A stretch of 64,000 nt of DNA from Curvibacter sp. PD_MW3 (lineage in GTDB: Bacteria; Pseudomonadota; Gammaproteobacteria; Burkholderiales; Burkholderiaceae_C), in the NCBI GenBank assembly GCA_002633085.1, contig NSIV01000001.1, forward strand, positions 682,001-746,000, given 5' to 3'. The notes below the pieces were generated by a model, which searched no databases, was not told the DNA's origin, and worked only from the letters and a program-made list of their open reading frames with translations. Within the stretch, counting starts at the first letter, position 1, and the number at the start of each line of letters is the position of its first letter. A program made the translations under genes and the position numbers. This document shows positions 40,605 through 42,812 of the stretch, piece after piece.

Positions 40605-41507
40605 TCAGGCGGGAAAGACCCCGGTGGACAGGTAGCGGTCGCCGCGGTCGCAGACGACAAACACGATGGTTGCATTCTCTTCACGTTTGGCAATTTCCTG
40701 CGCCACCCAGCAGGCGCCCGCCGCAGAGATGCCGGCAAAGATGCCTTCCTCGCGCGCCAGGCGGCGGCACATCTCCTCGGCATCGGACTGGCTCACATAA
40801 ACCAGTTCATCCACCAGGCTGGCGTCGTAGATCTTGGGCAGGTATTCCTGCGGCCACTTGCGGATACCTGGAATGCGCGAGCCTTCGCTTGGTTGGGCGC
40901 CGATGATCTGGATCTTGGGGTTCTTTTCCTTCAGGAAGCGCGCTACGCCGGTGATGGTGCCGGTGGTGCCCATGGCGCTGACGAAATGCGTGATGCGCCC
41001 GCCGGTCTGCGCCCACAACTCGGGGCCGGTGGTCTCGTAATGGATGCGCGGGTTGTCGGCGTTGGCAAACTGGTCCAGCACCCGGCCCTTGCCGCTTTGC
41101 TCCATCTGCGTGGCCAGGTCGCGCGCGTACTCCATGCCGCCGGACTTGGGCGTCAGGATCAGCTCGGCACCAAAGGCCTTCATGGTCTGGGCGCGTTCGA
41201 CCGACAGGTCTTCCGGCATGATCAGCACCATGCGGTAGCCCTTGATGGCCGCGGCCATCGCCAGGGCAATGCCTGTGTTGCCGGAGGTCGCCTCGATCAG
41301 GGTGTCGCCCGGCTTGATGTCGCCGCGCTCCTCGGCGCGCTTGATCATGGACACGGCCGGCCGATCCTTGACCGAGCCCGCCGGGTTGTTGCCTTCGAGC
41401 TTGCCCAGAATCACGTTGCCGCGGGCGGCGTTCTCGGCGGCGCCGATGCGCTGCAGTGCCACCAGGGGGGTGTTGCCGATGGCGTCTTCAATGGTCGGAT
41501 ACTTCAT
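40605..41507 (-). CDS. cysM: Cysteine synthase B
   Basis: A 300-residue PLP enzyme making cysteine from O-acetylserine and sulfide or thiosulfate. The Schiff-base lysine is K47 in NPAGSVKDRP, and ATSGNTGIALA and the SAMGTTGTITGVARFL phosphate loop are present. Length and the RKWPQEYLPKIYD stretch favour CysM over CysK. The start at MKYPTIEDAI is clear; the upstream open frame is antisense to the tRNA gene. Confidence 0.94.
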   Translation of the reverse strand: MKYPTIEDAIGNTPLVALQRIGAAENAARGNVILGKLEGNNPAGSVKDRPAVSMIKRAEERGDIKPGDTLIEATSGNTGIALAMAAAIKGYRMVLIMPEDLSVERAQTMKAFGAELILTPKSGGMEYARDLATQMEQSGKGRVLDQFANADNPRIHYETTGPELWAQTGGRITHFVSAMGTTGTITGVARFLKEKNPKIQIIGAQPSEGSRIPGIRKWPQEYLPKIYDASLVDELVYVSQSDAEEMCRRLAREEGIFAGISAAGACWVAQEIAKREENATIVFVVCDRGDRYLSTGVFPA

Positions 41508-41547
41508 GCCCACACTGTGCCATAATTTCGGTCTTGCCTTCCTCCCT

Positions 41548-41632
41548 GCCCGGGTGGTGAAATTGGTAGACGCAGGGGACTCAAAATCCCCCGCCGCAAG
41601 GCGTGCCGGTTCGATTCCGGCCCCGGGCACCA
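41548..41632 (+). tRNA. tRNA-Leu (anticodon CAA)
   Basis: An 85-nt class II tRNA. The acceptor arms GCCCGGG and CCCGGGC pair fully, the anticodon loop CTCAAAA is closed by GGGGA/TCCCC (anticodon CAA, reads UUG), the extra arm is CGCCGCAAGGCG-like, and the T-arm is GCCGG-TTCGATT-CCGGC. CCA is encoded. A CATAAT -10 box (41521-41526) lies just upstream in the divergent cysM leader. The 3' end is followed by degenerate tandem copies of itself. Confidence 0.96.
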
Positions 41633-41890
41633 TCTCTTTGAATACACGACCGGTTTGATCTCACGAACCGGCACGCCCAAGGCGGCATGTGAAGCGCACT
41701 TCGTGCGCGGGTTTCGATTCCGACCCCGGACACCACCTCCTTGAATAGCCCGTTCGTTGACGCTCGCGAACCGGCACGCCCCAAGGCGGTATGGTTGAAG
41801 CGCACTTCGTGCGCGGGTTCGACTCCAACTCCGGACACCACTTCTTGATTTTCCAATGCCTGTTCCCTTCGCGAACCGGCACGTTTCCTT
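41629..41890 (+). repeat. Tandem 103-105-bp repeats carrying tRNA-Leu-like 3' ends
   Basis: The phrase GAACCGGCACG recurs at 41665, 41768 and 41873 (periods 103 and 105). Units one and two each contain a GCGCACTTCGTGCGC hairpin, then a T-arm-like GGTTTCGATTCCGACCC or GGTTCGACTCCAACTCC, then CCGGACACCA, ending at 41735 and 41840. These ends are in register with the true tRNA end at 41632. The third unit is cut off just before the stop of the convergent SDR gene. The layout recalls E. coli tyrT, whose repeats carry tRNA 3' ends. Confidence 0.8.
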
Positions 41891-41891
41891 T

Positions 41892-42812
41892 TCACTCGGC
41901 TGCCAGCAAACCCTCACGTACCGTCGGGTAATGCAGTACCACCCGCAGTTCGTTCTTGAGCCGCGTGTTGTCCATGCGGCGCGACTCACTCATGAAACTC
42001 AGCAGCATCAGCGGCAGCTTGTCCTGTGCCGTGCTGCGCGGCACGCGCGGCGGGCGCGGCAGGCCGTAGAGATCGGCCGCCAGGTCGAAGTAGTCGCCCA
42101 TCTTCAGCACCGTGTCGTCGTTGACGTTGTAGACGCGCTGTGGCGCACCGCGCCACAGCGCCGCCACGCAGGCGCGCGCCAGATCGTCGGCATGGATGTG
42201 GTTGGTGTAGACGTCGTCCTCGGCCTTCAGCACCGGCGTGCCTTTGAGCAGGCGCTCGCGCGGCGTGCCGCCTTCGCGGTCCGGCGCATAGATGCCGGGA
42301 ATGCGCAGCAGGCTGGTGCGGCTGCCGGCACTGCGGCCAAAGAACCGCACCGCCAGCTCAGCTGCAACACGCCGCTGGCCGCGCGGCGTGCGGGCCTGGG
42401 GCAAGCGGGTTTCCGTCACCCAATCGCCCGCGCAATCGCCATACACGCCGCTGGTGGAGCCGTAGACCAGCGCGCCGGGCAGCGAGCGGCGGCGCAAGGC
42501 TTGCAGCAAGGCCTGGGTGCGCGGATCACCCCAGCCCTCGGACGGCGGCGGTGCCAGATGCAGCACGCGCGTGGCCAGGCCAGCCAGGCGCTGCAACGTG
42601 GCCGGCTGGTCGAGGTTGCCGGCCAATGGCGTGATGCCGCGTTCGCGCAACTCAGTGTGGCGCAACACTGAAGACGTCAAGGCCAGCAGGCGCACCCGGC
42701 CCTGGAGAGCGCGGGCTGCACGCAGGCCGACATCGCCACAGCCGACGATCAACACACGCTCGCGGCGAAAGCGCGCCGGCAGCGCGCCGAGGGGGCTTTG
42801 GTTTGAGGGCAA
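41892..42812 (-). CDS. SDR family oxidoreductase (NAD-dependent epimerase type)
   Basis: A 306-residue Rossmann protein with a short motif VLIVGCGDVGLRAA (about 20-33), YGSTSGVYGD and DDVYTNHIHADDLA. It lacks the YxxxK of catalytically active SDRs at the usual place, as in the YeeZ-like group of atypical SDRs, so activity is uncertain. The stop codon is directly next to the last tRNA-derived repeat unit. It is divergent from the flavin reductase gene across 44 bp. Confidence 0.83.
   Translation of the reverse strand: MPSNQSPLGALPARFRRERVLIVGCGDVGLRAARALQGRVRLLALTSSVLRHTELRERGITPLAGNLDQPATLQRLAGLATRVLHLAPPPSEGWGDPRTQALLQALRRRSLPGALVYGSTSGVYGDCAGDWVTETRLPQARTPRGQRRVAAELAVRFFGRSAGSRTSLLRIPGIYAPDREGGTPRERLLKGTPVLKAEDDVYTNHIHADDLARACVAALWRGAPQRVYNVNDDTVLKMGDYFDLAADLYGLPRPPRVPRSTAQDKLPLMLLSFMSESRRMDNTRLKNELRVVLHYPTVREGLLAAE

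Follow-up and report, generated by a model that had tools for sequence, protein, structure and literature searches.

Why a leucine tRNA gene should be followed by tandem partial copies of its own 3′ end is the question raised by a locus of Curvibacter sp. PD_MW3. The gene lies in a stretch of 64,000 nucleotides (the window; contig NSIV01000001.1, positions 682,001 to 746,000) and encodes tRNA-Leu(CAA), including its CCA end, at positions 41548 to 41632 of the + strand; it is the sole tRNA called in the window by ARAGORN. With moderate confidence, the array behind it can be read as a tRNA-tail element, a non-coding structured repeat fixed behind a tRNA with a layout like that of RtT from the E. 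coli tyrT operon; on this reading the array is probably transcribed as the tRNA trailer and may then be cut. The evidence for this reading, and for its rivals, is set out below.

Organization of the array

The array 3′ of tRNA-Leu(CAA) comprises two full units and a stub, spaced at 103 and 105 bases, and is returned by Tandem Repeats Finder with a period of 105, 2.2 copies and a score of 279. Each full unit consists, in this order, of a linker, an inverted piece of the tRNA, a hairpin and a tail that directly repeats the tRNA from its T-loop to its CCA end. In unit 1 (all features on the + strand), a linker of 31 nt (41633–41663) precedes a piece copied in inverted orientation from the variable arm and the 5′ half of the T-arm (41664–41685), the hairpin P3 with the sequence GCGCAC-TTC-GTGCGC (41694–41708), and a tail copy identical to the tRNA at 21 of 23 positions (41713–41735). 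Unit 2 again has a 31-nt linker (41736–41766), followed by its inverted tRNA piece (41767–41789), a P3 hairpin of the same sequence, GCGCAC-TTC-GTGCGC (41800–41814), and a tail copy with 18 of 23 positions identical (41818–41840). Unit 3 is truncated 12 bases into the inverted piece that follows its linker (41841–41883), and the same stub is found in the relative G002.

An initial annotation of this DNA had placed the motif GAACCGGCACG at 41665, 41768 and 41873, and tail copies ending in CACCA at 41735 and 41840, which keep register with the genuine tRNA end at 41632 at spacings of 103 and 105 bases; all of these positions are confirmed. Far from being unrelated to the tRNA, the motif starts the inverted copy, a reverse complement of the tRNA's own variable arm and the 5′ half of its T-arm. 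Positions 41600–41613 match 41664–41677 in inverted orientation at 14 of 14 bases, 41591–41613 match 41767–41789 at 83% over 23 bases, and positions 1–23 of the core model used below also match the strand opposite the tRNA. The hairpin ascribed to every unit is present in the two full units and missing from the third, a stub without hairpin. The annotation was right about the repeats and tails, and had overlooked that part of each full unit is an inverted tRNA copy, that the third unit is cut short and that a second tRNA serves as host.

Searching the genome for the repeat, as had been proposed, returns a single array; the next match is a stretch of 38 bases (E 0.009) at a locus without a tRNA. 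When 32 tRNA genes of this genome (loci L086–L115 from a listing of 40 tRNA matches, plus L009 and L053) were compared with their downstream sequence, tRNA-Leu(CAA) had a copy of its own 3′ end at 22 of 26 letters and the next best gene had 16. The array is flanked upstream by a divergent gene for a cysM-like PALP enzyme and downstream by a convergent gene of the epimerase family, and no mobility gene (integrase or transposase) occurs among the six flanking proteins (FapA, NUDIX, PALP, epimerase, oxidoreductase, and TctC). On the opposite (−) strand, frames at 41504–41989 and 41581–41895 remain open across the tRNA and array for 161 and 104 codons; as both run through the antisense of the tRNA, they are probably spurious.

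Distribution in relatives

Sixty relatives were searched with the locus, and the loci obtained were then read. Units lie behind tRNA-Leu(CAA) in 10 of 25 same-genus relatives (G002, G003, G007–G010, G014, G016, G018, in which ARAGORN leaves this tRNA uncalled, and G019) and behind a second gene, tRNA-Leu(UAA), in eight (G006, G009, G010, G014, G016, G018, G019, and G024, the last degenerate), counts that cover the loci read, several genomes having an unread locus, so that the true shares may be higher. Absence of repeats from close relatives had been named in the initial annotation as the sign of a neutral local duplication, and repeats are present there. The UAA locus of the genome under study (L053) carries no unit. 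Arrays vary between close species, as G004 has similar downstream text without a unit and G002 has one unit plus the stub of the window. The UAA loci L039–L041 share the tRNA order Gly, Cys, Gly, Leu, and a small conserved protein with a start like MASYNAPFEIHVHGQ is encoded shortly behind the tRNA or unit at ten UAA loci (L039–L043 and L051–L055).

A scan of a collection of 84,980 species with an exact pattern returned 36 loci, of which 17 lie behind tRNA-Leu(CAA), 9 behind tRNA-Leu(UAA), 2 behind a tRNA 3′ end uncalled by ARAGORN, and 8 lack a tRNA. Where genera are named, the 28 tRNA-linked loci belong to Hylemonella, Curvibacter, Polaromonas, Ramlibacter, Xenophilus, and Variovorax sp. PCZ-1, all genera named so far being Comamonadaceae; the remaining titles read Comamonadaceae, Burkholderiaceae, Burkholderiales, Gammaproteobacteria, Proteobacteria or Pseudomonadota. 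The eight tRNA-less loci come mostly from other phyla and by eye resemble coding matches. Since the pattern contains the Leu arms, units behind other tRNAs could not be found by it. A census with R1, a sequence-only model of the core, matched 34 of 399 family genomes at E ≤ 1e-3, consisting of 13 with a unit beside tRNA-Leu, 17 without a tRNA, and 4 left out (G170, G348, G086, and G369). In a sample of the order (399 genomes, some of the same family), R1 matched at E ≤ 1e-4, besides G000, only G1128, at a locus without a tRNA. Absences in these large searches are soft owing to strict filters. The Leu element has a patchy distribution which, on present observations, does not extend beyond the family, and its only hosts known so far are the tRNA-Leu(CAA) and tRNA-Leu(UAA) genes of Comamonadaceae.

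Such patchiness (13 of 399 family genomes confirmed) counts in favor of a DNA element, non-coding and mobile or recombinational, for which tRNA 3′ ends are the target; it would insert behind a tRNA gene or at its end and duplicate the tail so that the tRNA stays whole. Its hairpins would act as single-stranded DNA, like other folded recombination sites, and its transcription would be incidental. Presence is, however, clustered on a tree of the neighboring cysM-like gene (32 of 39 loci, seven having no usable gene), with 6 changes against a shuffled mean of 9.3 (3 of 500 shuffles as low), which fits inheritance with loss. Well-supported branches force only two of the presence changes, and the sample is biased because the scan loci were picked for carrying units. 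Neither an integrase nor a transposase is found among the six flanking proteins, and because the eight tRNA-less scan loci look coding, no tRNA-free unit is known here. A mobile DNA element is rated a possible source of the array, though a less probable one than a structured trailer element.

Two relatives show other rearrangements at tRNA-Leu(CAA). In G029 (L046 and L047), foreign DNA splits the gene at the anticodon loop and one insert looks intron-like, and in G025 (L018 and L048) about 2.8 kb separates the tRNA from a second copy of its 3′ half. As tRNA 3′ ends are common att sites, the array might itself be the scar, by att duplication, of a genomic island integrated in the tRNA, and the splitting of this very tRNA by foreign DNA in both relatives would agree with that origin. 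The copies in G025 and G029 are, however, simple halves of the tRNA that have neither an inverted piece nor a hairpin, and the G029 cut falls at the anticodon loop. No integrase lies beside the array, and the distance from tRNA to unit, 28–34 nt in 26 of 37 loci, is unlike a scar. An island scar is very improbable.

The tail follows the host tRNA

A search with a model of the core produced 100 matches, 72 of them at ≥22 bits, from which 13 duplicate sequences under other locus ids and 2 partial units were set aside, leaving 57 for the analyses of tail and hairpin; the 28 matches below 22 bits are the strand opposite the tRNA itself in 27 cases and a partial unit in one. For 36 distinct first units, compared under shuffle controls that overstate independence because the sequences are related, the acceptor and CCA part of the tail agrees with its own tRNA at 315 of 432 letters (reassigned mean 251.2, maximum 280; 0/5000), and the T-loop part at 383 of 396 (reassigned mean 372.7, maximum 379; 0/5000). 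The 14 UAA units alone give P values of 0.0002 for the T-loop part and 0.0004 for the acceptor, while for the 22 CAA units alone the acceptor part agrees at 205 of 264 letters (permuted mean 186.3, maximum 201) and the T-loop part lies at the permuted mean and is uninformative. At L040, L042 and L052 the less common T-loop letters of the tRNA recur in the unit, and T-loop letters mismatch their own tRNA in L051 and in both L043 units. The inverted piece follows its own tRNA as a weak tendency (227 of 252 letters vs. 223.9, P 0.018). Tail identity is complete (23/23) in some relatives, for example L140 and L063, as against 21/23 and 18/23 for the units of the window.

The tail matches the host tRNA at CAA and UAA loci, and the cores are common to both. 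Cores shared between the two loci, each with the tail of its own host, would also suit a DNA element that moves between tRNA genes; insertion alone, however, leaves the fit of the inverted arm to a new host unexplained.

Hairpin, fold and constraint

A perfect stem of at least five pairs occurs in 41 of 53 distinct cores (one off-position stem, L135, included), compared with a mean of 11.4 and a maximum of 20 in 200 rounds of interior shuffling. The hairpin is usually placed one base 5′ of GGTTCG, and its stem varies among GCGCAC/GTGCGC, GCGCGC/GCGCGC, GGCGCG/CGCGCC, AGCACG/CGTGCT and ACGCC/GGCGT, with two versions of a ten-pair stem in the Xenophilus group. No perfect stem is present in 12 of the 53 cores, among them the Polaromonas cores L121, L140 and L141. 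In alignment A4 (36 rows), which visibly misplaces the hairpin in several rows, three helices have 92.7% of cells paired vs. 90.4 in shuffles, and two-sided changes number 18 cells vs. 5.5 (0/500), all of them in P3. Two of the five measures on A4 are weaker, namely the number of pairs with two-sided change (3 vs. 1.4, reached by 32/500 shuffles) and the number of pair types (12 vs. 10.9, reached by 100/500).

Neither P1 nor P2 has a two-sided change in A4. P1 (CGAACC/GGTTCG) is paired in 99.1% of cells and is the only complementarity between 5′ arm and tail in most species; by eye, this complementarity is longer in Xenophilus. RNAalifold on alignment A2 (23 rows) finds no two-sided change in any pair, and the fold of a single unit has no clear advantage over that of shuffled sequence (z −1.29 and −0.44). 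A linker hairpin, GGTTNG/CGAACC, was considered as a general feature and rejected, being visible by eye in the same genus and Polaromonas and absent in Variovorax PCZ-1.

Conservation was compared across 11 CAA loci (55 pairs), in which the core middle, the portion not derived from the tRNA, has a mean identity of 0.75, four-fold sites of the cysM-like gene 0.68 (a rough yardstick because of codon bias), and the linkers 0.53, with shuffled-letter values of 0.50 for core and 0.46 for linker. These values bear on the proposal that the array arose by neutral local duplication, with a first unit generated by slippage or fold-back copying at the palindromic T-arm and later units by tandem duplication. 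The T-arm is indeed itself a near palindrome, copy number differs between the window and G002, and tails tend to decay with distance, similarity to the tRNA being lower in the last unit than in the first for 7 of 12 arrays, equal for 4 (L012, L140, L025, and L117) and higher for 1 (L141). Neutral copying does not, however, account for a core middle more conserved than linker and four-fold sites, for compensating hairpins, or for a core that recurs in several genera at two distinct tRNA-Leu genes, and it is considered improbable. The strand-slippage scar suggested in the initial annotation is likewise unlikely in its pure form, as the core is conserved and the hairpin compensates.

A further idea, in which the inverted piece sequesters the tRNA 3′ half and the unit supplies a replacement, was dropped as the main explanation. 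The minimum-energy fold of 41540–41900 does hold a duplex between inverted piece and tRNA 3′ half (z −2.28); the idea was demoted because the tails of the window break acceptor pairing and several last units are without an acceptor copy.

Proposed mechanism

At the locus of the window a structured trailer element is favored, with a tRNA-targeting DNA element as a strong rival. The array of the window is probably transcribed as a tRNA trailer. No terminator-like site is found between the tRNA and the units on the + strand of 41400–42100, which makes transcription and release of the trailer plausible. By analogy with RtT, the trailer may then be cut into small CCA-ended RNAs, the least certain step of the model. 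The putative roles named in the initial annotation were small RNAs released by processing and decoys for RNase P or RNase E. The direct repeats of 23 bases would let units duplicate or drop out through unequal recombination, changes that would be harmless because each exchange leaves a complete tRNA 3′ end, and selection may retain the folded core, namely P3 and perhaps P1 (CGAACC/GGTTCG) and P2.

Under a simple, author-made rule, the first unit is separated from the tRNA by a terminator-like hairpin at 9 of 37 Leu loci (in the H. gracilis and Xenophilus groups); the same holds for 21 of 50 RtT first units within 100 bases of their tRNA, for which the rule also scans the first 40 bases of the unit as delimited by the model. 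Trailer transcription is therefore not general among Leu loci, and these hairpins in both families are a point for the DNA element. Units behind terminators imply either other promoters, read-through, or that the DNA is the conserved thing.

Comparison with known systems

Several known arrangements resemble the Leu array in part. The leuZ 3′ETS of E. coli is a tRNA-Leu trailer that sponges small RNAs (PMC5222698) and, like the Leu loci, is a tRNA-Leu trailer ending a tRNA operon; the accessible part of that report mentions neither a repeat nor a tail copy. Genomic islands integrated in tRNA genes share with the Leu array direct repeats of the tRNA 3′ end, but the array has no cargo, no integrase among its six neighbors, units of ~105 bases, and a structured core. 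The gene order of the E. coli leuZ tRNA operon can be likened to the Gly, Cys, Gly, Leu order of UAA loci. Integron attC arrays also consist of tandem units, in which folded, sequence-variable sites lie between conserved inverted boxes, as they do here. The attC consensus is RYYYAAC/GTTRRRY, whereas the Leu boxes are CGAACC/GGTTCG (GTTCGAT read directly) and no gene cargo is seen; an integron-like cassette was rejected on the misfit of the boxes and the position of every first unit within 56 bases of a tRNA.

RtT (rttR, RF00391) is the closest parallel, and the likeness to E. coli tyrT proposed in the initial annotation is correct in layout; RtT too sits behind several tRNAs and carries their tails. 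It is released as small CCA-ended RNAs. Both RtT and the Leu units are tandem units directly behind a same-strand tRNA gene, and both end in the 3′ end of the host tRNA, a criterion that for RtT comes from the present unit analysis and not from Rfam. At E. coli tyrT, the RtT unit opens with a 5′ arm in inverted orientation to the tRNA end, continues with hairpins, and closes with a 3′ tail identical to that end, an order similar to that of the Leu units. The RtT core, however, has several hairpins and a CCCGAAGGG-type block and the Leu core one main hairpin, and the RtT 5′ arm complements the T-stem 3′ strand and acceptor, whereas the Leu arm complements mainly the T-loop and T-stem 5′ strand. 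The RF00391 covariance model has no match in 41500–41950 at E up to 10 or in G000 at E ≤ 1, and R1 in turn finds nothing in RtT, so that kinship is in layout only and the Leu units, not being RF00391 members, are not filed as RtT. They are a new family of RtT-like tRNA-tail elements, separate from RtT.

As far as the accessible parts of the sources go, RtT is described near Asn and Lys tRNAs, with Northern signals in Actinobacillus pleuropneumoniae and mention of many tRNA operons (PMC4986893), as a 175-bp variable repeat in Salmonella (PMC2658671), as an RNA, printed as RtR and vTR, whose helices are supported by covariation (PMC8250186), and as a tRNA operon by-product that may act in the stringent response (PMC4986893, PMC2965389). 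In the class, RF00391 matches 65 of 369 genomes at E ≤ 1e-3, 23 of them above the Rfam cut-off. The 86 RtT units examined are part of those listed, with a second batch from multi-match genomes, and units of one array are not independent. ARAGORN places a tRNA ≤700 bases upstream of 65 of the 86 (Ser 29, Gln 22, Tyr 9, Arg 3, Lys 1, and Glu 1, a few calls being doubtful) and finds none for the other 21. The unit ends in the exact last 18 bases of its host tRNA in 47 of 65 cases. The longest complementary run between 5′ arm and own tail averages 6.89 in 38 units vs. 4.83 with tails swapped (0/500), and a cruder arm/tail score separates less well from its control. In the same genus as the window, G012 (L153) has a strong RF00391 match (E 4.5e-11) behind tRNA-Lys(UUU), with the tail of that tRNA, and G013 (L158) and G010 (L159) have an RtT-like unit behind tRNA-Ser(GGA) and a terminator-like hairpin, with weak RF00391 matches (E 0.2–0.7). 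The text of L156 (G021) is similar to these two Ser loci.

RtT also informs the mobile DNA element as an alternative. Its core similarity is nearly independent of the host tRNA (0.617 over 145 pairs with the same host, 0.607 over 1005 with different hosts) and somewhat higher among units at different tRNAs of one genome (0.666, 26 pairs; shuffled 0.519), values that carry no significance test, and the available text of one study reports that interspersed BIME elements located before other genes resemble rtT (PMC2965389).

The placement of RtT near several tRNAs was already known in part; in the parts of the literature covered, mainly titles and the beginnings of abstracts, no description of the Leu units and no statement of the tail rule was found. 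The tail rule in RtT (47/65), together with a second family under the same rule, suggests that tRNA ends and folded repeats are related in a general way. More tentatively, tRNA-tail elements may be a broad class, with RtT and the Leu family as unrelated members, that colonize tRNA 3′ ends, form both arms of the closing stem anew from whichever tRNA hosts them, and are tolerated since the tRNA end stays intact. The parallel between the two families raises the question of how an element acquires the end, and the complement of that end, of each new host tRNA.
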